Source: Haloplasma contractile
Lineage (GTDB): Bacteria; Bacillota_I; Bacilli_A; Haloplasmatales; Haloplasmataceae
DNA: 46,650 nt
Direction: 5' to 3'
Assembly: GCA_016841945.1 (NCBI GenBank)
Contig: JAENYC010000028.1
Span: forward strand, 1-46,650
Part shown: piece after piece, positions 1,179-39,140 of the stretch
Numbering within the stretch: position 1 is the stretch's first letter
Layout: the number at the start of each line of letters is the position of its first letter
Translations under genes and position numbers: made by a program
The notes under the pieces: model-generated
Databases searched by the model: none
What the model was told of the DNA's origin: nothing
Seen by the model: the letters and a program-made list of their open reading frames with translations, nothing else

Positions 1179-3452
1179 TTACTTACTTGTTACACCAAGG
1201 TTACGAACGGTGACCGTATTTTGATTCCATTGAAGTTGTGCAATAATACGTGTTAAGACTGTCCCATCAATGGTAAGTGGTATCGTGATATCAACCGTAT
1301 TTCCTTTACTTTGACTTCCACCTTCAACAACTCCATTCATATCCAAATTAAAGTCTGTCGGAATGGCACCTTCCATATCTTTCTCCACACCTTTCATGGC
1401 ATCGGTAAATCCAACACCAATACCGGCTCCCATATTCTCGCCAATTCCAGAGAATACTTTAGAAGGAGAGTGAATACCAAGAACTCCTTTGACACCATCT
1501 ACGATGCCACCAACAAAATCACTAACTTTCTTTTTCAGCCAAGTAATCATGGATGCAATTCCATTCCAGATCCCTTTCACCATATTCATTCCGACATCAA
1601 GCATACCAGGAATTAAATCTGCAAGTCCTGTGATTATTGATACAATGATTTGTGGTAATTGCGCTAAAAGTTGTGGAAGAGCACTAATGATTCCAGTAGC
1701 AAGGTAGATCAATAATTGAATCCCCATATTTAAGAATTCTGGTAAGTTGTCCGTGATAAAGAGAATAATACTATTTATGATTTCAGGTAGGGCATCAATT
1801 AAAACAGGAAGTGCATTAATTAACCCTTCAGCAAGGCCCTTTAATAACAGAAAAGCAGCATTTAAGATTAAATCAATATTATCAATCAAGGTTTCAACAA
1901 TTAAAATAATCGCATCAACCACAGCTGGTATTAGTTCAGGTAATGCTTTACCAATACCTTCAGCTAATTTCGTTACAACTTCAATTGCTGCTTTAACTAG
2001 TTTAGGTAAATTCTTAAGGATTCCTTTTACTAAGGTTAAGACTAGTTTTAATGCACTATCCGTTAATTTCGGTAATGCTCCAATAATACCTTTCACTAAG
2101 GTAAATATGATACTTGTTGCCGCATCAATAAATGTAGGTAAGTTCGATAGAATTCCATCTATCAATGCTTGTACTAAATCAGGAGCCACTTTAGACAAAG
2201 AAGTAATTAAAACCGTAATGACATCAAGGATTTGTGGTAGAACAGTCGCAATTTGAGATACCGTTTCTTTGGCTCCCTCGATAAGCTTATCTGATGCTCC
2301 TTCTTGGCCATTAATCAGTCCAGTTAAACCATCAGCAATCATCGTAATACCTGGAAGGAGTTGTGCAGTAATATTATTTTTTATACCAGTAAAAGATCTT
2401 GATAAATTGTCCATAGCATCCGTATAGTTAACTGCTGCATTTACCGCATCATCGCTCATGACCATTCCAAGATCATGAGCTTTTTCTTTTAAGGCATCCG
2501 TTCCTTCAGCGGTTTGATTTAATAATGCTGCAAGTGAGACAGATGATCTTCCGAGCAAATCATTGGCAACTGCAGCCTTTGCTCCTTCATCCGTCATACC
2601 TTGCAGTCCTTTAACAGTCATATCAAATATTTCAGATCGACTTTTACCTTGTAAGTCCTCCATTGATATTCCCAAACGAGCAAAAGACTCCGCTGCAGTT
2701 TCATTCCCATTTAAGGCATCATCAACTGTATTATTGAGTCTCTTCATCCCATTTTCTAACGTATCAATACTAGCTCCATTTTGACTTAGGACATAATTCC
2801 ATTCTTGATAGGCTTTTCTTGATAAACCTAGACGCTGACTCGCTTTATCTATCTCATCACCAGCACCCGCTGCATCGTTTGCCATATCATATAACTTTTT
2901 ACCTGTTGCGATGGCCGCTGTTCCAACAACAGCCATTGAAGCACCAATCGCTATCGTGACTCCTTTGATAATAGAATTTAGTTTTTCGAACTTATTACCA
3001 GCATCATCTGTTGTCTTTGCTGTATCTTCTAATTCATCACCGAACTTTTTGGTTTCTTTCTTTACATCACTAAATTCATTACCAGATTCTTCTAATGACT
3101 GATTGTTTTTCTCCACTTCACGTTCCATCTTGATTAAATCCGCTTTGGCTTTATTTAATTGAACTTGCCAATTCTGTGTACGCCTGTCCGTTTCTCCAAA
3201 TGAATTTGATGCATTCTTTAAAGCGGATTCTAATGTTGTTATTTTATTTTTTTGTTCATCGATCTGTTTATTTAACACTTTATTTTTCGCGGTTACTGCT
3301 TCAATTGATTTATTATTGTCTCGAAACTCTTCTGTCACAAGACTTAGTTCAGAACCAATGACTTTAAAACTTCGATTAATATCTCGAAGCGAATTCTTAA
3401 ACTCTTTTTCACCTTCGACCCCAATTTTCAGTCCAAAATTATCATATCCCAT
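1179..3452 (-). CDS. Phage tail tape measure protein
   Basis: 757 residues. It sets tail length and occupies the tail tube lumen. The N-terminus has the widespread tape measure signature (FGLKIGVEGEKEF, then a SLRDINRSFKVIGSEL segment), followed by a charged coiled coil at about 35-150, a hydrophobic stretch at about 160-190, and a region at about 420-640 made of repeated hydrophobic helices with a recurring G-I-x-x-ALP-x-L pattern. Near the C-terminus is the GIHSPSKVF motif common in these proteins. The start codon at 3452 and its AGGAGG site lie inside the left inverted repeat of the recombinase element, so the present N-terminus MGYDN appears to be supplied by that element. An in-frame fusion to the interrupted start at 6962 can be drawn (see that entry). 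The rest of the gene looks intact. Confidence 0.93.
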   Translation of the reverse strand: MGYDNFGLKIGVEGEKEFKNSLRDINRSFKVIGSELSLVTEEFRDNNKSIEAVTAKNKVLNKQIDEQKNKITTLESALKNASNSFGETDRRTQNWQVQLNKAKADLIKMEREVEKNNQSLEESGNEFSDVKKETKKFGDELEDTAKTTDDAGNKFEKLNSIIKGVTIAIGASMAVVGTAAIATGKKLYDMANDAAGAGDEIDKASQRLGLSRKAYQEWNYVLSQNGASIDTLENGMKRLNNTVDDALNGNETAAESFARLGISMEDLQGKSRSEIFDMTVKGLQGMTDEGAKAAVANDLLGRSSVSLAALLNQTAEGTDALKEKAHDLGMVMSDDAVNAAVNYTDAMDNLSRSFTGIKNNITAQLLPGITMIADGLTGLINGQEGASDKLIEGAKETVSQIATVLPQILDVITVLITSLSKVAPDLVQALIDGILSNLPTFIDAATSIIFTLVKGIIGALPKLTDSALKLVLTLVKGILKNLPKLVKAAIEVVTKLAEGIGKALPELIPAVVDAIILIVETLIDNIDLILNAAFLLLKGLAEGLINALPVLIDALPEIINSIILFITDNLPEFLNMGIQLLIYLATGIISALPQLLAQLPQIIVSIITGLADLIPGMLDVGMNMVKGIWNGIASMITWLKKKVSDFVGGIVDGVKGVLGIHSPSKVFSGIGENMGAGIGVGFTDAMKGVEKDMEGAIPTDFNLDMNGVVEGGSQSKGNTVDITIPLTIDGTVLTRIIAQLQWNQNTVTVRNLGVTSK

Positions 3453-3530
3453 AAGTTTTATTATCCTCCTAACTCCCAGCGGGCTTAGTAAATCCGAGGA
3501 ATTAGCAATGAATTCCTCGGATAATTATTG
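3436..3530. repeat. Left terminal inverted repeat of the RIT element
   Basis: Reverse complement of 6839-6932 with mismatches; the best conserved blocks are the outer 15 bp (AAATTATCATATCCC), the AGGAGGATAA(T/C)AAAACTTATG block and the inner CAATAATTATCCGAGGA block. It holds the ribosome binding site and ATG of the tape measure gene. It also contains a perfect palindrome at 3493-3521: 11-bp arms (TCCGAGGAATT / AATTCCTCGGA) separated by 7 nt, the geometry of a tyrosine recombinase core site. Confidence 0.85.
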
Positions 3531-3535
3531 TGATA

Positions 3536-4573
3536 CTATCTGCGAAACAAGAACGGCATAACCTGTGGGAGCGGATGGTTTTGAACTCGGGAAGAAACCT
3601 CTTTCAGGGGTTTCCCACGCTCGTTAAGGTATCTGCTTGCCAATTCCGGTGTAACTCGCGCATATATCGCAGTCGATTCAATAGATGAATGTCCCAAAAA
3701 GGCTTTGATGGCAACAAGCGACTCCCCGATTTCCAACATATGGACAGCAATGGAATGCCTGAACGAGTGCGGAGTATAGTTGCTATCCTTAAACAAGCGG
3801 GGATATTCCTTCTTCGCTTGGGCCACGTATTTCTTAACGAGTTCCTCAACACACGAAATGCTCATATGCTCGTTAGTTTGGCTAGAAAACAGATGGCGAT
3901 CCTTTGTGTCCAGCGAAGTAACATCAAGGTTTCTGCTCCGCAAATATTCTTTTAAGATTGTTGTGCAAGTATCGGGGATCGTAACCATGCGAGTTTTCGG
4001 ACCTTTGCCTGTTAAGCGGATTTTCGTTGGAGATCCAAGCGTTATGCTACCCAAAGTAATATCGCAAAGTTCCTGCACCCTAGCCCCTGTAGCATATAAA
4101 ATACTTAGTATTGTTATGTCACGCTGACCGATTGTTCGGAAGGGATTCGGTAACTTCAGCAGGATAGCGATTTCTTCTTTTGTAAAATGCTTGAATTCTG
4201 GTGTTTTGGGCATTCGCTTTTTCGGCAAGTTAACAGCTTCGTTGTAAAACGGAAGCGACACAGAAAACGATCTTTTGGAGGCGAATTTAGCAAACGTGAC
4301 TATGGCGGCACGCCTAAGGTTCCTTGTTCTAATTGAGCATCCACGCTCTTGCTCGAGATAAAGTAGGAATTCTTCTATCGTTCTGCCGCCCAATTCGTCG
4401 AAGGTTACTTTTTCAGGCTTCAGCCCTTTAACCTCCTCCAAGTATCGGAACAAAAGCTGGAAGGCATATTGATATGAAGTAATGGAGTTTTCCTGAAGCC
4501 CTTTTACATGGGGAAGATACTCGGTAAAGAATTCCTCAAGCAACGGTAACACTATAGCGGATTTCTGTTTCAT
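3536..4573 (-). CDS. Tyrosine recombinase, third gene of the RIT trio
   Basis: 345 residues. It cuts and rejoins DNA through a tyrosine nucleophile. An N-terminal SAM-like core-binding domain (about 1-115) precedes the catalytic domain. Catalytic residues are visible in order: Arg in ATGARVQELCDI, Lys in LTGKGPKTR, His-x-x-Arg in TPHSFRHSIAVH, His in LGHSSIESTAIYARV and the Tyr in the same segment. The ATG overlaps the stop of the preceding recombinase (ATGA), so translation is coupled. It ends 6 nt from the left inverted repeat. The catalytic set is complete, so this protein should be active. It would be RitC by gene order. Confidence 0.9.
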   Translation of the reverse strand: MKQKSAIVLPLLEEFFTEYLPHVKGLQENSITSYQYAFQLLFRYLEEVKGLKPEKVTFDELGGRTIEEFLLYLEQERGCSIRTRNLRRAAIVTFAKFASKRSFSVSLPFYNEAVNLPKKRMPKTPEFKHFTKEEIAILLKLPNPFRTIGQRDITILSILYATGARVQELCDITLGSITLGSPTKIRLTGKGPKTRMVTIPDTCTTILKEYLRSRNLDVTSLDTKDRHLFSSQTNEHMSISCVEELVKKYVAQAKKEYPRLFKDSNYTPHSFRHSIAVHMLEIGESLVAIKAFLGHSSIESTAIYARVTPELASRYLNERGKPLKEVSSRVQNHPLPQVMPFLFRR

Positions 4574-5544
4574 TCGAAATTCACCTCCGGGAACAATGAC
4601 TGAATAGCATGGGCGACTCTTTCCTGGGAATCCGTATACATCGTATAATCCGTGGTCAAATACTTTTCCGTACCGAAGAATGACTCGTGACCCAAATAGG
4701 CAGATAAATAAGGCATGATTTCTTCGAGGGTAACACCTTGTGATTCAGCGTTTAAAAAAGATTTAAACGTAAAATAATGCCGAAGGGTGTGTGGGCTGAT
4801 GCAGCGTTCAAAATGTGCTGTTCTTTCATTGTTGATTTTGGCTTGCCTAAGAACCCTGATAAACCAATCCCTAAAAGTGTTCTGCAAATATGGTTTTCCG
4901 TCTTTGTCAGCGTTTCCAAATAAGAATTCGGAGCCGTTGCAATCAGGAAACCTTCTTTTACGATACAACTTTAATATATCCGCTAAAGAATCTTTGAAAG
5001 GAACACGGCGCTGCTTGTTGTTTTTGGCCTGCTTGATAGTGATAGTGCCTTCGTCAAGATTAATGTCTTCCCATTGCAGTGCGAGAGCTTCCCCGACTCT
5101 CAATCCGCAACCATATAGAATCCTCAGCATAACAGGGAATTTGTATGACGTTTCTGATTTTACGGCATTTGCTTTAAAATTGTCCGCAACGGTGATGATT
5201 GAAGCGAATTCCTCATCTGTAAACGTATGCGGCAAATGAGTGGAAGTCGCACGGCAGAAGTCAGGCTCAGCTGCCGGAATAGCAAGCGCATTCAGGTAAC
5301 GTGAAAATTTTCTAATCCGCCCGATGATATAATTTTTAGTTTTAGGGGAAACGGTAAGTGTTCTTAACCATGCCTGGATAATATTCTCCGATAACACCTT
5401 TTCCTTAATATCCATCGATATCAAGTACGCATCAAGGCTTTTAAATGTGCTGATATAGCTTTCAGTATCTTTTTCAGCGCCATGTAGCAACTCCAAGTAT
5501 TCGTACATCTCTGCGGAAAGACTGCTTGTTAGACTGAACGCCAT
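4570..5544 (-). CDS. Tyrosine recombinase, second gene of the RIT trio
   Basis: 324 residues from ATG 5544 (MAFSLTSSLSAEMYEYLELL). A longer reading frame runs back to 5667, but that part overlaps the first recombinase, and the 1-nt spacing to the first gene's stop favours 5544. Catalytic residues: Arg in GCGLRVGEALALQW, Lys in KQAKNNKQRRVPF, His and Arg in SPHTLRHYFTFKSF, His in LGHESFFGTEKY, with the nucleophilic Tyr following. All are present. It presumably acts with the other two proteins as a complex, as inferred for RIT elements. It would be RitB by order. Confidence 0.9.
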   Translation of the reverse strand: MAFSLTSSLSAEMYEYLELLHGAEKDTESYISTFKSLDAYLISMDIKEKVLSENIIQAWLRTLTVSPKTKNYIIGRIRKFSRYLNALAIPAAEPDFCRATSTHLPHTFTDEEFASIITVADNFKANAVKSETSYKFPVMLRILYGCGLRVGEALALQWEDINLDEGTITIKQAKNNKQRRVPFKDSLADILKLYRKRRFPDCNGSEFLFGNADKDGKPYLQNTFRDWFIRVLRQAKINNERTAHFERCISPHTLRHYFTFKSFLNAESQGVTLEEIMPYLSAYLGHESFFGTEKYLTTDYTMYTDSQERVAHAIQSLFPEVNFE

Positions 5545-5545
5545 A

Positions 5546-6784
5546 TTACATCCCACCTTCCAAATATTTTTTGAACAAACCGCTTGGTGGGGGCACTTCC
5601 AAGCAGCAGGCTCTAAGACTCTCAAGAGCGAACTGCACGTAATGTCTGGTGGCATTAGGATCAACATGACCTAAAGCATACCGAACGACATCGTATGGCA
5701 CCTTTTCAGAAATTAATTGGCTTGCGAAAGACATTCTCAGGGCGTGCATCCCGTGTCGTCTTGAACCAATATCAATGCCGGAACTTTTGAGATGTCGCGC
5801 TCCGATATTCCCAACGGTATGGTTAGCCAATGGGTGTCCATAGCCATCCAAAAAAATATACGGCTCTTCAGACTCCTCACGACCGTTAGTAATATAATCT
5901 TATATGGCATCAGCAACTTCCTTGGGTAACGGAAGTTGGTGCGGGACCGCTGTTTTGAATTGCACGAACTTAATCATTGAACGTTCGAAATCGACATTTT
6001 CAAAACAAAGATGGGCGATGTCTGAAACCCTCAATCCAAGGCGAGCCGCTATCAGTACCATTGTATAATCACGCTTACCTTGTGGTGTTATGGTTTCGAT
6101 ACTGTCTAATAATCGTTTTATTTCCGCTTCGCTGTAAACGGATGGTATGGCTTTACGTTTTGTTACCATGGGTAAAAGACCTGAGTAGTCATTTGAAACA
6201 ACCCCAGCTTTCACCAAATATCCGAAAAGACGCTTTGCGTAAGTCGCAAACTTAAGTTTGCTTGCAGAATCTGAAAAAGCCTTTGTCAGAATCCTTGCGT
6301 CGATGTCGCCCCAGTCATTTGCTCCTTGTTCCGCAAAATTACCCAGCATTTGCTTTATGCAAAATGAGCGGTACATTCCAATAGTTATTTCTTTCAATCC
6401 TTCCTGCTTAAGTGATTGCAAGAATTCTTCGAAATGTTTAACAAATTGCTTGGGGTATTCCGGCGGTATATACGAGCTTCGGTGTGTCCTTAGACTGCGT
6501 GGAGCTACTTGCCAGTAGTTTTTACCATAAAGATATACATTTAGCTGTCTAATTGTTTTTTTACGACGAGCCAATGTTGATTGCTTTTTTCCTTGAGTTT
6601 TTTCAAACTCCCAAAAGGCATATCCTATCTCCGGTGAATATTCAGCGTAGTCGTTTGTGGCGGCATACTCAAAAAGCAAGTCCATAGTTCTACTATAATC
6701 TTTAAGAGGTTTAAAATTTTCGCTTTCGAGATAAGCCATGAAATCTTTTTTAAGGTTTTGCCAATAAAGGTAAGTTGTTTTCAT
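5546..6784 (-). pseudogene. Tyrosine recombinase, first gene of the RIT trio, interrupted by an in-frame stop
   Basis: The frame runs from ATG 6784 (MKTTYLYWQNLKKDF, with GGAGG 6 nt upstream) to 5546, interrupted once by TAA at 5900-5902. Before the stop: core-binding domain and the first catalytic Arg (AARLGLRVSDIAHL). After it, in the same frame: HGMHALRMSFASQL with the His/Arg pair and LGHVDPNATRHYVQF with His and Tyr. The break falls after LPLPKEVADAI, where the family normally continues into the next helix, so it is a nonsense mutation and not a frameshift. Without readthrough the product would lack its nucleophile and be inactive as a recombinase. A sequencing error is the other explanation. 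Confidence 0.8.
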
Positions 6785-6812
6785 ACTGTTCCTCCAATAG
6801 TTTATTTGAGTT

Positions 6813-6962
6813 TCAGTATTTAGCATAATCAATAGATACAATAATTATCCGAGGAGTTTTTATTAAAGTCCCGGAACTAATATATCCACAGGAAGTTAGG
6901 AGGATAACAAAACTTATGGGATATGATAATTTATCCAAGTTCTCAGATAAGTTATCTGGCAT
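6813..6962 (-). pseudogene. Severed 5' end of the original tape measure gene
   Basis: A 49-codon frame starting at ATG 6962 with an excellent AAGGAGGG ribosome binding site, 18 nt after the stop of the frameshifted tail chaperone. Only its first ten codons (MPDNLSENLD) lie outside the recombinase element; the rest reads into the inverted repeat and stops. Joining this to the tape measure frame at the shared GATAA gives MPDNLSENLD followed by NFGLKIGVEGEKEF in frame, so I infer that this is the native start of the tape measure gene. A homologous phage without the insertion would decide it. Confidence 0.55.
6839..6932. repeat. Right terminal inverted repeat of the RIT element
   Basis: Inverted copy of 3436-3530. 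It also carries an outward AGGAGG and ATG (ATG at 6915-6917), here pointing rightward on the plus strand, antisense to the phage operon, where the frame closes within about 25 codons. The internal palindrome is less perfect than in the left copy (TCCGAGGA / TCCCGGA arms). Confidence 0.82.
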
Positions 6963-6980
6963 TTCTTTCCCTCCTTCCCA

Positions 6981-26621: not shown

Positions 26622-29600
26622 TTAATCAACATTATATTTTTCGCTTTCTTCAGCCACTTTTTCTGACCAAGTAGTCTCTTCATAAACATTTCCTGCCATC
26701 TTTTCTGCTTGCCGCATTACAATATTCATAGCTTTCAATGCTTGTTCTGGTGGGTAGTCATATTTCTTTAACAATCTCTTTATGACTCGTCTCATACTAG
26801 CCCTAGCACTTTTACGAACACTCCAGTCAATTGTGATATTGCTTCTAATAGCTAACGTCAGTTCATGAGCAATTTTTTTAAGTGTCTCATCTTCCATTAA
26901 CTCTTTTACAATATCATCTGCTGTAAGTGCGTCATAGAAAGCAATTTCATCTTCACTAAGACCTAAATCAGCTTCTTCATCATGCATCTTTTTAATATCA
27001 TGCGCCATGCGAATCAGTTCTTCAATGACCTCAGCATTGGTAAGCGCCTGATTTCTATACTTATTAAGTGCCTTTTGTAATCTTTCTGAGAACTTTTCTG
27101 ACTTCACAAGGTTCCGCTTTTCCATTGTTTTGATGTTTCCTTCTAACAGTTTTTTTAACATTTCTAAGGCTAGATTCTTCTGTTTCATTTCTTGAACTTC
27201 CTTTAAGAACTCCTCTGAAAGAATAGATATTTCCGGTCTCTTAATTCCCATAACATCAAACACATCAACGACATCTTCTGAGATGATGGAGCGCTCTAAC
27301 ATTTGATGAAGTCTTGCTTCTATTTTTCTTTTTGATAACGGTGTCTTATCTTTTTCTTTAAGTTTAACTAGACTTGCTTTAACCGCCTTAAAATAACTGA
27401 CTTCAAGAGCTTTGTCTTTACCCTTTTCAGTTGCTGCACATAGCGCATGAGCTTTACCAAGCTCCAAAGTTATCTTTTTAAACTCTTTTTGTTCCTCTTC
27501 TTTTTTACCAAGTATAAAGTCCATTCCACCTACAATGGTACGCATTCTTTCAACTTGGGATTTACCCATGTATTTAGAATAATCGTAACCATGCATCATG
27601 CCTCTTAAAATTTCTAGTTTTTCAAGCATAATGGCGACAGCCACATCTGTATCGATCCCAGTGTTTTGTCTATCTGTATTGGTATATTGTTTTAAGGCAC
27701 TTTTTAAACTTTCTAAAATACCGATGTAATCAACAACCACACCACCTGATTTTTCCTTGAACACACGATTGACTCTTGCGATGGCTTGCATCAGGTTATG
27801 ACCTTTCATCGGTTTATCAATGTACATGGTATGCATAGACGGTACATCAAATCCTGTGAGCCACATATCTCTTACCAGTACGATTTTTAGTTCATCGCTA
27901 TTATCTTTCATACGTTTTGCTAGTAAATCTCTACGTTGTTTCCCACCTATATGTTTTTGCAGTCTTTCATTATCTGCCGCACTACCTGTCATAACAACTT
28001 TGATTTTTCCTTTATTAATATCATCGCTATGCCAATCTGGTCTTAAGGTCACAATAGCATCATAGAGTTCTACACAGATTCTACGACTCATGCAGACCAC
28101 CATCGCTTTTCCATCAATGCTTTTAGATTTTTCTTCATAATGATTCACAATATCTTCAGCAAGTTTCTTGATCCTATTAGGAGATCCTACGACTGCTTCC
28201 ATTCTTGACCATTTAGCTCTGTTCTTATCCTTCTCAATATCTTCTTGACCTTCAGTGATTTCTTCAAACTCATCATCGATCTTATGTAGTTCTTCTTCAT
28301 TTGTTTCTAACTTAATAATTCGGTTTTCGTAATAGATACGAACTGTCGCTTCGTCCTCTACCGCCTGAGTCATGTCATAGGTATCAATGGTATGACCAAA
28401 AACAGCAACTGTTGATCGGTCTTCAAGATCAATAGGCGTTCCTGTAAATCCTATAAAGGATGCATTAGGCAGCGCATCTCTTAGATATTTAGCATAACCA
28501 TAATTAACCTCACCAGTTTTAGCATCTACCTTTGCTTCAAGACCATATTGACTTCTATGGGCTTCATCAGCAATGATAATAACATTTTTCCGATTTGTTA
28601 GTACTGGCATCTCGCCTTCTTCAGGTTTAAACTTTTGAATGGTAGTAAAAATAATTCCGCCAGACTCTCTATCATTTAGAAGGTCGTAAAGTCCATTAAC
28701 CTCTATACTGTTGCCACTAGCATAATTAGTTCTTTGATTCTCTGATAGTTTTCTAACAGTTGCCTGCTTTGGTGTCTGTCTTAGTATATCCTTTGATTTA
28801 GTGAAGGTTGTAAATAGCTGATCATCTAAATCGTTTCTATCAGTTATAACCACAATGGTTGGATTATTAAGTTCTCTAACAAGTCCACCAGTATAAAAAA
28901 CCATGGAGAAGCTCTTTCCAGAACCCTGAGTATGCCAGATAACACCAATCTTCCGGTCACCGTTTTCTTTTGTTGCTTCTTTAGTTTTCTCAATTGCTTT
29001 CTTTACTGCAAAGTATTGATGATAAGCAGCCAGAATTTTGATGATGGTTTTCTTATCGCCAATCTTCTTTCCATCCATATCTTTCTCTGATTCTTTTGAC
29101 TCTTGGAACACAATGAAGTTTTGAATAATATCAAGAAATCTACCTTTTTGAAACATACCATTTAGTAGTACTTCATACTGAGGTTGTGATAAAGGTTCAA
29201 TATTCACACCATCAACCGTTCGCCAGTTCATGAACCACTCTTCACTAGACGTGATTGTTCCAGCTTTGGCATTAATCCCATCTGATAAGATGCAGAATGT
29301 ATTATAGTTGAAAATAGATGGAATATCCCGCTTATAGGTTTGAATTTGATTGTAAGCACCTTCGATGCCTACATTCTCATCACTGGCTGATTTTAATTCG
29401 ATTACGACAAGAGGCAGACCATTCACAAAAACAATAAGGTCCGGTCTTCTTTCTTCGTTTTCAACAATGGTAAACTGATTGACGACGACAAACTCATTAT
29501 TATTAACATTCTCAAAATCAATGATATAGGCTCTCTTAGTACGTATGTGGCCGCCTTCATTAAATGATACTTCAATTCCCTCAGTCATTAACTGATGAAA

Positions 29601-29876
29601 GTATCGATTGTTCTCTTCTAACATCGGGCTGTTAAAAGTAATGAGCTGCCGATAAGCATCATCCAATGCTTCTCTTGGAAGGTCACGATTTATCTTAAAA
29701 AGTGCATCTTTGACTCTAGATGATAAAACAACTTCCCGATAATCTTTTCTTTCCTCATACTCGCCACCATAAGAAATATCCGGCCCAAAGGCATAGTTAT
29801 AACCCAGATTCACTAATATTTCTATCGCTGCCTCTTCAAGCATTGCTTCTGTAAATATGCCAGTATCATTATTCAT
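26622..29876 (-). CDS. hsdR: Type I restriction enzyme R subunit (HsdR)
   Basis: 1084 residues from ATG 29876, with GGGGAG 9 nt upstream. It is the translocase and nuclease of the type I complex. N-terminal PD-(D/E)xK nuclease: [20 protein letters not shown] (about 145-165). Helicase motifs: Walker [21 protein letters not shown]-like [23 protein letters not shown]. Late motif [20 protein letters not shown] and ARVNRVFK. Full length for the family. It has a separate promoter region downstream of hsdS (29935-29964). Confidence 0.95.
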
Positions 29877-29934
29877 AACTTTCATCTCCCCTAACTTTTA
29901 TTTTTTCACTGTATTGAGGCTGTTCGCTTTGTCT

Positions 29935-29964
29935 TGTCAAATATAAAAGTTAACATTCGTTAAC
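29935..29964 (-). promoter_or_regulatory. Candidate hsdR promoter with adjacent GTTAAC palindrome
   Basis: Minus strand TTGACA (29935-29940) is followed after 17 nt by a weak TCAATA. Directly upstream is GTTAACGAATGTTAAC (29949-29964), an imperfect palindrome of repeated GTTAAC, a possible operator. The 149-nt gap after hsdS has no gene. Confidence 0.4.
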
Positions 29965-30025
29965 ATATTATTCAACACTGTTTTATTTAAATTTGTAGAT
30001 TCTAAATTTTATGAACATCATCTGC

Positions 30026-31261
30026 TCAATCAAGAGGAACTCTTATTTCTCCTGACATGAGTTTAGGAAGAAGGGAGTCTCTTAATTTAATCAATTGACC
30101 ATTTTGGCTCTCAACGTTATCTAATAATTCACTTATGCCTCTAAATAGCTTATCAGCATTCTCCATTACATCTAGTCTTGGAACAACAATTTTATAATTC
30201 TTTAGTATATCTGTTTTTAAATTTCTAAAAACACTGCCGTTACTTAATTGTAAAATACTATCTCTTTCATGTTTTAAAAAATAATACATATAGTCTCGAT
30301 TTACCGTCTTGAATTCATCAAATATTAACCAACCATCATGTACACAAGCATTTATTTTCATAATTTTGGGAATACCGGGTGTTGCACTATTTGATAAAAT
30401 CAAAGTTCCAATTGTCACTTCTCTACTTTTACTTCTGCCTTCTTCCTTAATAAACTCTTTCGTACTTGCTAGAAAACGACTATCACTTGTAGTTGCATCT
30501 GATATTTTTACCCAAGGTATACCATCATCAACCATGAAATGCTGAATTGGGCGAGGTGATGCTCCTCTTACTATTCTAGTAACATCATTAACTCGCTTTA
30601 CTTCCCACCCCTTAGGTATCATCCCAAGCTCACTTTCAACCATTTCTCCGCCACTTGACTTATATGGTTCACCATCTTCATTGGGAAATTCGAAATCCAC
30701 AAACCACTGCTTAAAAATTGCCTGAGCCATATTCTCAAGGGTTTTGTTAACTTGATTGTTAACTTCGATTTTTTCATCCAAGGTTGAAAGGATATGCACG
30801 ATTGCTTTTTGTTCTTTGAGTGAAGGAATATCGAACTCTAGATTTTTCATAACCGTTCCAGATATTTCTTTAAACGTAGATCCATTTGCATAATTTTCTA
30901 TTGCACTTATATTATTTTTTAATAAGTAATATACAAATATATTATCATTATCATCATTTACAATAATACTCTTAAACCCTTGATTTGTAGTCACTTCATT
31001 ATCTGCTATCGCAACATAACCAATAGGTGCTCTAGAAGTAAATAGAACTGTCCCTTTTGGAAGAAGTTTTGCACTTGAATTATCTAAACCATTTTTGCTA
31101 ATATTCCTTTCACCCTTAGAAATATGCATGCTCGTATGAGAAGATAAGTCTTTAGGTGTTATCCATGGTATATCTCCATTCCAATATTCTACAGTCTTTG
31201 TTTTTGGTGTTCCACCAGCAACTATTTGACCTATCTCTGATAATTTTATTCTTCTAAACAT
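30026..31261 (-). CDS. hsdS: Type I restriction specificity subunit (HsdS)
   Basis: 411 residues from ATG 31261; the GTG at 31270 is also possible. Two target recognition domains (about 5-140 and 220-360) each followed by a conserved helix: EQKAIVHILSTLDEKIEVNN after the first, and SQNGQLIKLRDSLLPKLMSG at the end. Also GMIPKGWEVKRVNDVTRIV starting the second domain. It decides which bipartite DNA site the enzyme methylates. It overlaps the stop of the PIN gene by 8 nt, so it is translated in coupling with it. Confidence 0.93.
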   Translation of the reverse strand: MFRRIKLSEIGQIVAGGTPKTKTVEYWNGDIPWITPKDLSSHTSMHISKGERNISKNGLDNSSAKLLPKGTVLFTSRAPIGYVAIADNEVTTNQGFKSIIVNDDNDNIFVYYLLKNNISAIENYANGSTFKEISGTVMKNLEFDIPSLKEQKAIVHILSTLDEKIEVNNQVNKTLENMAQAIFKQWFVDFEFPNEDGEPYKSSGGEMVESELGMIPKGWEVKRVNDVTRIVRGASPRPIQHFMVDDGIPWVKISDATTSDSRFLASTKEFIKEEGRSKSREVTIGTLILSNSATPGIPKIMKINACVHDGWLIFDEFKTVNRDYMYYFLKHERDSILQLSNGSVFRNLKTDILKNYKIVVPRLDVMENADKLFRGISELLDNVESQNGQLIKLRDSLLPKLMSGEIRVPLD

Positions 31262-32336
31262 ATTTTCCACCGCCTAACTGTCTTTTACCAAGGTCATAGA
31301 AATTTTCTAATGCAAATACTTTTGTAATATAGAAACTCTTCTCATTAAAACTGTACTCAATATAAAATATTACTTCTTCATTTTCCAGATCAATATCATC
31401 TTCCTTTTCAAAATTCGAGAACGTAAGGTTAAGTTGTATAATGATTTCAAAATTAATGAATCCTGTAGAATTATTTTCTGTAGTTTCTATGACATTCTTA
31501 ATTTTAGCCTTGCTTATATCACTAACATCATAAATCTGTGAACCAAAATTTTTGAATAACTCGGTTTCAAAAATCACATCTTTTATAAGATCGTAATCTA
31601 CCAATGATCGTAATTCATCATAATACTTCACTACATCTCTATCTAATTTACGAAGATGATTTACAGACTTCTGAACTTCCGCTACTTGAGTTTTCACATC
31701 ATCTTCATTATTCAACAATATAAGATTGTCTGAGAAAAGATTTTTGTATTCCTCTGAAAGCACATCGTTAAACAATCCATCCCTGGAGTATAAGATTATT
31801 TTACATTTTGAATATTTTGCCTTGAACTCTAAGAGACTCTCCCATATTAAAGCATCCTTAAATCCTTTATCACTTTTTTTATCAATTCCTTCAAATGGTG
31901 GTCGTTTTGAAAAAGCACGTCTAACAATCGATTGAAATCTTGTTTCACTTGGCAAATCGATACTAATTATTTTTATTGAATAGTTACTAAGCTTTTTTTT
32001 AAATATGTTTATTTGTTCATTCAAATACACTTTATAATCAAACGTTGATATTTCATACTGAATATGGGGAAATTTAAAAGTTCCTAATAACTTCTCTAAT
32101 TCGTTATTTTTTTTGTTAAATGCTTGTATCCTTTGATGATATAATTCATTCCAAGTAACATCAGGAATTGCAATAGTAATATGCTCAATAAGATCCCTTT
32201 CTTCAATCTCATCTACAATATTTTGAAATGGTCTATTAAACTTAAATTCACAAAAATTACACCCGTTTTCCGCTTTTTCATACAAAATATTAGTATCGAA
32301 TATTATAACGTATTTATTGGGAATTCTAAAACTCAT
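31254..32336 (-). CDS. PIN-domain nuclease embedded in the type I restriction operon
   Basis: 360 residues from ATG 32336 ([20 protein letters not shown]), with GGGGGT 7 nt upstream; a TTG at 32351 is less likely. Four acidic PIN residues are visible: D14 in [10 protein letters not shown]64 in TWNELYHQ, D161 in [12 protein letters not shown], and D186 (with D191) in YSRDGLFND. Residues about 1-195 form the PIN domain and about 195-360 are an extension of unknown role. It overlaps hsdM by 11 nt and hsdS by 8 nt, so expression is locked to the RM proteins. By analogy with PrrC, it may be an RNase held inactive by the RM complex. PIN assignment is firm from motifs (the PIN_4/DUF4935 group is likely); substrate and control are inferred. 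Confidence 0.72.
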
Positions 32337-33849
32337 ACCCAATACCCCCAAGGTTCTTTCTAATTTCTTCTTCTAGGCTTCGTGATTTAGCAAAGAGTTC
32401 AGCCAGTTCACTTGTCATATTTTCCATCTTCTCATCAAATGGAATACCATCGTCTTCTACATCTTCGATTCCTACATATCTTCCCGGGGTTAATACATAC
32501 TCGTGCTCTCTGATTTCTTCAATTTTGGTTGACTTACAGAATCCTTTGATATCTTCATACTCCCCATTGATATTTCGCCATCCATGATAAGTCTCTGAAA
32601 TTTTACTGATATCTTCTTCTGTCAATTGTCTGTGTCGTCTATCAATCATTTCGCCTAATTGTCTTGCATCAATAAAAAGGACTTCATGTTCTCTTGATCT
32701 GAACTCCGGATTATCTTTTTTGTTTCTGTTCAAGATCCAAAGTGATACTGGAATTCCTGTAGAATAAAATAGTTTATCAGGGAGTGCTACAATAGCATCC
32801 ACCATATCCTCTTCTAATAAGTTCTTTCTAATCTCACCTTCATTTGATGTATTAGTACTTAATGATCCATTTGCAAGTACGATACCCGCAGCTCCATTAG
32901 GTGCCAAATGATAAACCATATGCTGTAGCCATGCATAGTTTGCATTGCCGACAGGTGGAATCCCAAACTTCCATCGCACATCATCTGTCAGTTGATTCCC
33001 ACCCCAGTCACTAATATTAAAAGGTGGATTTGCAAGTATATAATCTGATTTCAATGTTTTATGAAGATCATGATGGAAAGTGTCATCATGATGTGGTCCT
33101 AGGTTAGCATCAAGTCCTCTGATTGCTAGGTTCATTTTACAAAGCTTCCATGTTGTAGAATTCAATTCCTGACCGTAAATGGACAAGTTCTCAATCTTTC
33201 CTTGATGATCTTCTACGAACTTTTCACTTTGTACAAACATACCGCCTGAACCACAACAAGGGTCATACACTCTACCTTTATATGGTTCAATCATATCAAC
33301 TAAGGTCTTTACAACACTGGTTGGCGTATAGAACTCTCCACCACCCTTGCCCTCAGCGCTTGCAAACTGGCCAAGGAAGTATTCATACACTCTACCAAGT
33401 AAGTCCTTTTCACCATTTTGATGTAGCTTGATAGTTGAAATTAAGTCAATAAGTTCTCCTAGTCTTCTTTTGTCAATTTCTGGTCTTGCATAGCGTTTAT
33501 CCAATACACCCTTTAAAGATGTGTTTTCTTTTTCAATCAGAATCATAGCATCATCGATATACTGACCAATCTTAGTATCTTTTGCATTATCCATTATAAA
33601 AGACCATCTGGCTTCTTTCGGTACCCAGAAAATATTCTCCGCAGCATATTCATCTCTGTCTTCTTCAAAGCCTTCGCCTTCTTCAATAAGGGCGTTATAT
33701 TTTGTTTCAAATTTATCTGATATATACTTAAGGAAGATTAGTCCCAGTACCACATGTTTATATTCACTGGCATCCATACTACCTCTAAGTTTATCTGCTG
33801 CTTTCCAAAGTGTCTCTTCAAATCCAATGTTTCCTGTTTTCTCAGCCAT
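32326..33849 (-). CDS. hsdM: Type I DNA methyltransferase subunit (HsdM)
   Basis: 507 residues, ATG 33849, GGAGG upstream. N-terminal helical HsdM domain ([35 protein letters not shown]). Methyltransferase: SAM site [13 protein letters not shown] (about 195-210) and catalytic [11 protein letters not shown] (about 273-283), the order of adenine-N6 enzymes. The last residues overlap the start of the PIN gene. The upstream HTH gene ends 20 nt before its start. Confidence 0.96.
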
Positions 33850-37598: not shown

Positions 37599-39140
37599 AT
37601 GACAGTAAAAAATGAACTAACAAAAGAACAATTAATTGAAGAAAATGAAATTTTAAAAGCTAAAGTAGAATGGTTTGAAGGACAATTCAAAAAGATTCAA
37701 CAAGAACTTTATGGTTCTAAAAGTGAAAAAACTCGTCCTGAAGACGGTCAACTTAATTTATTTAATGAAGCAGAAGTATTGGCGGATGATACAGAAGAAG
37801 AACCTACTTTCGAAAAGATTACATATGAAAGACGTAAGAAAAGAAAGAGTAAGGAAGAAACATTAAAAGATCTTCCAGTAGAAAAAATTGAATATACATT
37901 AAGTGAAGAAGAACGTCTATGTCCACATGGTCATGGACCTCTTCAGGTTATAGGACAAGTAATAACTAAAGAAATTGCGATTAAACCAATGGAGGTTTAT
38001 GTTATCGAACATATCCAAAATAAATATGCTTGTCGTCCATGTGAAATAGAAGGGATTCAAACACCCATTATGATAGCACCTAAACCTAAACGTGCTATTC
38101 CAGGAAGCATGGTATCTTCATCAACCATTTCTTATGTAGCGAATCAAAAGTATACAAATGGAATGCCACTCTACCGGCAAGAACAAGAATTTAAAAGAAA
38201 TGGCATCGAATTATCTAGACAAACTTTAGCTAATTGGATGATAAAAGCATCTCAGTGCTTTACTCCTCTATTTAATCGTTTACATGAATTAATGATCAAA
38301 AAAGACATTCTACATGCAGATGAAAGTACTTTACAAGTTTTAAAAGAACCCGGGAAGGCCCCTACCTCAAAATCATACATGTGGTTATATCGAACAGGTA
38401 AATATGATAAACCTATTATATTGTATGATTATCAACCATCTCGTTCCGGAGATAATCCAAAGAGATTCTTAGAAGGATTTTCTGGATATCTAAATGTAGA
38501 TGGATATGCTGGGTACAATAAGGTTCCTGATGTTATTTTAGTGTCATGTCTTGCTCATGCCCGGAGAAGATTTAAAAAGACATTAGATGTTTTACCTAAA
38601 AACAGCAAAGTTATGAGAACTCGGGCCAATGCTGGTTTGAATTATTGTAACCAGTTATATAAGATAGAATCGAAAATAAGGGACTTAAGTCCTGAAGAGC
38701 GTTATAAAAAGCGATTAGAGTTAAGCCGACCCGTGTTGGATGATTTTTTAGCATGGCTAAATGAAATGAGAGAAAAAATAATACCAAAATCATTATTAGG
38801 TGACGCCATCAACTATACATTAAATCAATGGGATCATCTAACTAATTTCTTGCTGGATGGTCGATTAGAAATCGACAATAACAGAGCTGAGAGAAATTTT
38901 AAAAGCTATGTGGTGGGACGTAAAGGATGGTTATTCAGTAATACACCAAAAGGTGCTAAGACTAGTGCAATTATTTTTAGCTTAGTCGAAACAGCCAAAG
39001 AGAATAAATTAAAACCATTTAATTATCTTAAATACCTTTTAGATCAACTTCCTAATATTGATATTAACAATGAAAAAGAACTAGATAAATTATTACCATG
39101 GTCAGACTCAATTCCTGATGATTGTAAACTAAACAAATAA
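37599..39140 (+). CDS. tnpC: IS66 transposase TnpC
   Basis: 513 residues, ATG 37599. N-terminal leucine-rich coiled coil (LTKEQLIEENEILKAKVEWF), Cys pairs of a zinc-ribbon (LCPHGHGPL; YACRPCEI), then the DDE core: first Asp in HADESTLQVL, second in LNVDGYAGYNKV, and Glu in DNNRAERNFKSYVVGRKGWL. Ends with the IS66 C-terminal segment LDKLLPWSDSIPDDCKL. Full length. Confidence 0.96.
   Translation: MTVKNELTKEQLIEENEILKAKVEWFEGQFKKIQQELYGSKSEKTRPEDGQLNLFNEAEVLADDTEEEPTFEKITYERRKKRKSKEETLKDLPVEKIEYTLSEEERLCPHGHGPLQVIGQVITKEIAIKPMEVYVIEHIQNKYACRPCEIEGIQTPIMIAPKPKRAIPGSMVSSSTISYVANQKYTNGMPLYRQEQEFKRNGIELSRQTLANWMIKASQCFTPLFNRLHELMIKKDILHADESTLQVLKEPGKAPTSKSYMWLYRTGKYDKPIILYDYQPSRSGDNPKRFLEGFSGYLNVDGYAGYNKVPDVILVSCLAHARRRFKKTLDVLPKNSKVMRTRANAGLNYCNQLYKIESKIRDLSPEERYKKRLELSRPVLDDFLAWLNEMREKIIPKSLLGDAINYTLNQWDHLTNFLLDGRLEIDNNRAERNFKSYVVGRKGWLFSNTPKGAKTSAIIFSLVETAKENKLKPFNYLKYLLDQLPNIDINNEKELDKLLPWSDSIPDDCKLNK

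Follow-up and report, generated by a model that had tools for sequence, protein, structure and literature searches.

A recombinase-in-trio (RIT) element interrupts the tape measure gene (TMP) of a prophage in Haloplasma contractile, and the ends of this element probably double as translation starts. The stretch of DNA analyzed here (46,650 nt, hereafter the window) comes from a draft genome, in which it makes up one contig (G000:C29). The prophage lies in its left part, on the - strand, and its genes for the terminase, portal, major head, major tail and tape measure proteins could be named. A trio of recombinase genes sits between the upstream tail genes and TMP. It is a RIT element with the gene order RitA-B-C, inserted at codons 3-4 of TMP. 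We estimate at roughly 85% the probability that it represents a phage-adapted RIT lineage in which the sites of recombination also serve to start translation, so that the interrupted TMP remains expressed. The ends carry a Shine-Dalgarno (SD) sequence and an in-frame start codon; thus, whichever end faces the gene would supply it with a new ribosome site and a new start codon. Since the cassette is present at both ends, TMP would tolerate the element whichever way round it inserts, and also its inversion between the repeats. What can be read directly from the compared sequences is the insertion site, the empty site, the 6-bp direct core repeat, both orientations, in-frame starts, their conservation, recombinase-less versions, scars, and the absence of the cassette from other RITs.

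The insertion and its surroundings comprise the following features (loci used for comparison are labelled L029, L100, etc.).

1179..3452, - strand: TMP, a 757-aa open reading frame (ORF) whose product begins MGYDNFGLKIG, the ATG (3450-3452) being supplied by the element; it matches the PHROG family phrog_58 (tail length tape measure protein, E=5e-51).
3438..3443, - strand: TMP-side target core GATAAT, 6 bp, placed by comparison with empty sites and other joints.
3444..3531, - strand: TMP-side element end (outer inverted repeat), with AGGAGG at 3465-3470 and ATGGGATAT at 3444-3452.
3536..4573, - strand: ritC, tyrosine recombinase, 345 aa (PF00589, 5.8e-28), with catalytic HSFRH, LGH and Y present and an ATGA overlap with ritB.
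4570..5544, - strand: ritB, tyrosine recombinase, 324 aa (PF00589, 5.3e-24), aligned with L029 and L100 at 65/62%.
5546..6784, - strand: ritA, tyrosine recombinase, ~412 codons, cut off by an in-frame TAA (5900-5902) before the C-terminal catalytic residues.
6838..6924, + strand: severed-side element end (outer inverted repeat), with AGGAGG at 6898-6903 and ATGGGATAT at 6916-6924; it points out of the element, antisense to the phage genes.
6925..6950, - strand: spacer palindrome TTATC-TGAGAACTTG-GATAA together with ATTATC, the core copied in inverted orientation; both belong to the recombination site of the element, and the layout is the same in all other joints.
6951..6956, - strand: upstream target core copy, GATAAC, placed by comparison with joints.
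6957..6976, - strand: severed original TMP start (ATG CCA) with its own SD AAGGAGGG at 6969-6976, the counterpart of GAGGAGGTGAGGCACT ATGGCA in uninterrupted relatives.

Only three tyrosine recombinases are encoded between the repeats. All three Rit proteins contain the PF00589 domain; ritA and ritB are separated by 1 nt, and ritB and ritC overlap by ATGA. RitA has sequence matches of the SAM-like (residues 14-86) and XerD-like (from residue 120) kinds. Due to the in-frame TAA in ritA, this copy is probably not autonomous. The terminal inverted repeats of ~95 bp (3436-3531 and 6838-6932) are imperfect, with 61 nt at 84% and 21 nt at 95% complementary. The first-pass annotation of the window took 3436-6932 as the span of the element. 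The repeats are indeed there, but the actual insert is 3444-6950 plus one 6-bp core copy, and it includes the TTATC-N10-GATAA spacer palindrome.

Read outward, each repeat finishes TTAGGAGGATAAN(8)ATGGGATAT, i.e., AGGAGG, 12 nt, and then ATG. An outward AGGAGG followed by ATG had been noted earlier for both ~95-bp inverted repeats, and we located it at 3465-3470 and 3450-3452 (-) at the left end and at 6898-6903 and 6916-6918 (+) at the right end. The left repeat, as also noted, now opens TMP. The pattern GGAGG-N5..13-[AG]TG occurs 26 times in the window on both strands, or 0.03 times per 110-nt end; thus the block would be found at both ends by chance in about 1 of 1000 cases, with the frame requirement not yet applied. 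Conservation of the block in relatives, described below, removes the chance explanation. Across copies, the sequence of the 9 nt preceding the start varies freely and their length is constant. No promoter beyond the shuffle expectation was detected in the element ends, and RNA structure around the SD in the window (z = -1.5) gave no clear sequestration. The idea that the SD and ATG serve the element's own genes in a circular form was rejected, as the frames across the joined ends are short (MGYDNLS-stop or similar). Where the SD-GGGATAT pattern occurred at other spacing, the hits were unrelated and are attributed to chance.

According to the mechanism that we propose, the RIT inserts at a 6-bp core within the first TMP codons, and the late phage transcript would run through the element. 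A ribosome would then initiate at the SD-ATG (or GTG) of the gene-facing end, in frame with the target core, and TMP would be made with a few altered N-terminal residues (MGYDNF for MPDNF).

Relatives in the host's own family have neither the RIT element nor a close TMP, and therefore viral contigs and other Firmicutes were used for comparison. In 49 viral contigs with a related TMP the start is uninterrupted (MADNFGLKI, MSDFGLKI, LSDSFGFKL and similar) and has its own SD upstream; the empty sites read ATGGCAGATAATTTTGGACTG. A MGYDNF start in uninterrupted relatives had been named beforehand as refuting the idea of a restart, and none of the 49 has it. Four other contigs (L031, L033, L036, L037) that looked like candidates for a native MGYDNF start show it because they begin within an element end. 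When the flanks of the window are joined at the 6-bp core GATAAY, they give MPDNFGLKIGVEGEKEFKNSLRD / MPDNFGLKIGVEGEKEFKNSLRDINRSFKVIGSELSLV, co-linear with the relatives, and the reconstructed empty site encodes MPDNFGLKIG, which matches MADNFGLKIG of the uninterrupted phages. The severed start with its own strong ribosome site, another feature recognized earlier, has its ATG at 6960-6962 on the - strand. Its fusion to the other flank does restore a plausible N-terminus, but not at the shared GATAA proposed at first: the joint is the first GATAAC after ATGCCA (6951-6956), so that the empty site is MPDNFGLKIGVEGEKEFKN and not MPDNLSENLDKFGLKIG. The second GATAA is ~20 bp too far downstream, and the relatives and all other joints put the core at the first GATAAC. 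The surplus bases (TTATC-N10-GATAA and the inverted core copy) are owned by the element and are found at one joint of the examined copies, unrelated RITs included.

Signs of mobility come from the same comparison: one site is occupied and empty in relatives, both orientations occur, and inverted core copies are mismatched. In the joints of L029, L190, L206, L238 and L244 the inverted 6-bp core copy is unlike the current target. We take such a mismatch (L029, L190, L238, L244) as a record of the site occupied before, in support of movement from phage to phage.

A pattern search for an element end plus core in viral contigs gave 13 stretches, each of them at the start of a TMP or on the side severed from it. 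Full elements at TMP starts number at least seven. Two of them are co-oriented with the phage (the window and L100) and five are opposite (L029, L102/L120, L108, L109, L110), which agrees with the design working in either orientation that was suggested from the window alone. The inverted repeats in L029, L108, L109 and L120 are 88-106 bp long at 94-100% (106 bp at 99% in L029). A core-free pattern search added TMP targets with the cores TCAGAT, AGCGAT, GATTCA and GACACA, as well as a target of a different TMP type (L215). In addition, seven recombinase-less versions of ~300 bp with two ends each are present at TMP starts (L101, L105, L190, L206, L209, L238, L244). These versions, among them the copies at L105:4681-4977, L190:3434-3714 and L209:8691-8971, resemble miniature inverted-repeat transposable elements, and three of the seven share an exact distance of 255 bp between end motifs. 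In L100:841-4371 and L104:1-130 the N10 spacer is reversed beside the same element end, which suggests in-place inversion of the element.

Our test that does without ASCERTAINMENT was a search for the TMP-side joint, GGATAT-N6-TTYGG..., combining the joint with conserved TMP residues and demanding neither an SD nor an ATG. Of the 18 stretches obtained, 17 are true joints and one (L257) is a chance match. All 17 true joints have an in-frame ATG ahead of GGATAT, and AGGAGG lies 12 nt upstream of it in 14 of the 16 joints with visible upstream sequence. The TMPs at L254:647-675 (-) and L256:3684-3712 (-) start MGYSDFGLKIG after a weak ribosome site and have no recognizable element end; they are possibly very old scars. 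The SD-ATG block is thus present at the ends of other copies, as the first-pass annotation had proposed to check, and its in-frame position at gene-facing ends across relatives favors the reading that the insertion may break the gene and restart it at once. Among the copies with both ends readable, the SD block or the ATG is changed in four severed-facing ends (L101, L206, L238, L244) versus no TMP-facing end. Although low, this count suggests that selection acts on translation and not on recombination.

Three lineages (L192, L197, L216/L222) retain only one end of the element. We call these sites scars. Each consists of a severed start, ATGTCAGATTTATCTTAG (with GTG in L192), ~50 bp, one SD-ATG end, and an intact TMP of 789-793 aa. 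At the scar sites (L192:200-310, L197:2960-3060, L216:1860-1960, L222:2790-2890) the deletion seems to join CTCGGAT of the spacer with the inner CTCGGAT of the end. Pairwise ratios of nonsynonymous to synonymous substitution rates (dN/dS) for the scar-bearing TMPs of the three lineages are 0.10-0.11 at dS of 0.75-1.0. The upstream flanks of the scar lineages are alignable, which suggests shared descent. Provided that the lineages inherited one scar from a common ancestor, purifying selection has acted on a TMP whose translation began at a start supplied by the element.

These data bear on the view that the insertion kills TMP, in which case the prophages would be defective and the restart unused. 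In its favor, the window carries a broken RitA and is just one contig from a draft assembly, and the TMP of L101 is shortened. However, full-length ORFs follow the restart in the window, L105, L190, L209, L238, L244 and the scars, the scar TMPs show purifying selection, and the insertions have been found repeatedly in viral contigs. We regard a dead TMP as hardly credible.

The cassette is not restricted to tape measure genes. RitB, at ~50% identity, leads to Clostridia elements within ardC-like genes (L111-L119), where a sister RIT family has broken the gene into two cistrons. The name ardC-like is tentative and goes by an ArdC-type N-terminal motif that we recognized in the protein. Upstream of the insertion, the split gene finishes ...MQRPDATLVAGFLSD*; the part downstream of it restarts with MNKAYGYQAWQ..., read from AAGGAGGATAACT ATG AAC AAA GCA TAT|GGNTAY. 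Here the ATG is 6 nt past the SD, in frame, and lies between the two recombinase repeats rather than inside one. In one lineage (L112, L114, L117, L118) the ritA-side end has lost the SD as well as the ATG. L112 has ardC-like fragments at both element ends. In the RitB tree the tape-measure and ardC families each form a clade, and jointly they form one clade with support 100/100. That these proteins group with known RitB follows from tblastn matches to the trio of pHG1 (Cupriavidus) and from the joint tree.

As controls we used 26 ends of other RITs, taken from Lachnospiraceae genomes, Ruminococcus pRUMAL02, Cupriavidus pHG1 and the host's second RIT at G000:C25. An SD plus start was found in 0/26 of them. 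Many control ends show the same pair of repeats 17 bp apart and a similar spacer palindrome on one side; their repeats read CTCGGATAA/CTCGAATAA, TTTACATTA, etc., and AGGAGG or an in-frame start was never seen. Given this absence and the single 100/100 clade, the cassette is a derived property of the tape-measure/ardC clade. The host's second, distant RIT (G000:C25:574-4032, within locus L163 = G000:C25:1-7000) has 35-bp repeats and no ribosome site in its ends. It seems to interrupt an istB-like ATPase gene close to the Walker A motif.

The controls also help to judge whether the AGGAGG-ATG block is a mere recombinase recognition sequence, i.e., GGATAA/GGATAT repeats 17 bp apart, with the likeness to a start being a by-product and TMP expression incidental. 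The SD sequence AGGAGG does overlap the outer recombinase repeat (GGATAA), the inner repeat shares bases with the ATG, and the control repeats have the same 17-bp spacing. However, the control repeats lack the SD and the start, the ATG of the ardC family is outside both repeats, and GTG substitutes for ATG in L108. Moreover, four recombinase-less copies show drift at the severed-side end, in contrast to conserved TMP-side ends, and the cassette is kept in scars after the loss of the element. We therefore consider pure recognition improbable. Survivorship should be weighed too: RITs could insert widely, with only TMP-expressing copies still seen, so that the cassette works but never came under selection as a property of the element itself. 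Any phage with a dead TMP would indeed vanish, and every surviving insertion must therefore permit expression. Yet the cassette occurs at both ends of nearly every full copy, even at an end facing nothing useful, an analogous cassette serves an accessory gene in the sister family, where survivorship is weaker, and unrelated RITs simply break their targets. This makes survivorship very improbable as the whole explanation.

Several observations weigh against the proposal that the ends act as translation starts. The SD and ATG overlap the recombinase repeats, and their conservation could partly serve recombination. A stem-loop stands ahead of the SD, with a U-tract in some copies, and could terminate late transcription, although an insulating or stabilizing role is conceivable as well. 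The SD is weaker in L254 and L256; the TMP of L101 is only 449 aa from its restart; and in L112 and L117 the ritA-side SD and ATG have been lost despite an adjoining ardC fragment. Finally, some of the scars may have arisen independently.

With these points considered, we also find it probable that the clade turned its recombinase-binding ends into portable translation-initiation cassettes. It would thereby colonize the coding starts of genes that are essential (TMP) or useful (ardC) and, whatever its orientation, leave them expressed, and the cassette would outlast the element as the permanent start of the gene. A phage with the insertion would stay viable, its virions would contain the restarted TMP, and selection for harmlessness may have produced the cassette.

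Elsewhere on the contig, a complete-looking type I restriction-modification operon (HsdR, HsdS, HsdM) occupies 26622-33849 (-). An IS66-family transposase gene with small upstream genes (37599-39140, +) is located near the border between prophage and chromosomal genes.

RIT elements were reportedly described by Van Houdt et al. in 2009 and 2012 and by Ricker et al. in 2013. The element studied here shares with them three adjacent tyrosine recombinases A-B-C, an ATGA overlap (B/C in this case) and terminal inverted repeats. Two successive core-binding domains are a known trait of RitA (PMC8138268), to which the SAM-like and XerD-like matches of the present RitA may correspond. The RIT literature deals with gene inactivation and ~34-bp repeats (PMC3414803, PMC2864759, PMC8138268, PMC10214605, PMC5385486), the inactivated targets including radC and IS66 tnpA (PMC2864759, PMC10214605). 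Target specificity and empty sites are listed there as untested (PMC10214605). Unlike described RITs, the present element has ends of ~95 bp with an outward SD and an in-frame start, its target would probably still be translated, and both the target site and the empty site are visible by comparison. Strand-biased circularizing elements (SE), GInts and Tn554 also rely on tyrosine recombinases, are specific for their targets and show a 6-bp footprint of the site occupied before (PMC10214605). The six-base footprint described for SE and Tn554 resembles the one seen here, but the gene content of SE (IntA-Tfp-IntB-Srap) and Tn554 (TnpABC) differs, and the set of intA, tfp, intB and srap is absent between the repeats of the present element. 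No translation start in the ends of SE, GInts or Tn554 is reported in the literature examined.

Integrative elements such as prophages and islands in tRNA genes cut a gene and supply the missing part, so that the target keeps working. Those integrators attach by a single fixed end in a single orientation, and what they restore is usually the 3' end, whereas here either end would give a ribosome site, a start and new first residues. Low-cost parasites such as inteins and self-splicing introns reside at conserved sites of essential phage genes without destroying them. Inteins and introns are harmless through protein or RNA splicing; the RIT lineage would be so through a re-start of translation. 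Start Associated Sequences of Cluster K mycobacteriophages are AGGAG repeats at gene starts, partly with 17-bp inverted repeats (PMC3203893). They are many dispersed copies upstream of intact genes, come with no recombinases and are not known to be mobile. In the openly readable literature, we came across no mobile element described as providing start codons through its ends in this manner.

Insertion into a gene normally means the loss of that gene. Here the ends of the element would repair the damage at the level of translation, whatever the orientation, and such a restart would explain the life of a transposon in an essential structural gene of a phage. RIT elements gain a visible target site, an empty site, a footprint and recombinase-less derivatives, and thus both their recombination and a "do no harm" strategy become testable. 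The scars show a route by which mobile DNA may replace the start of a gene permanently.

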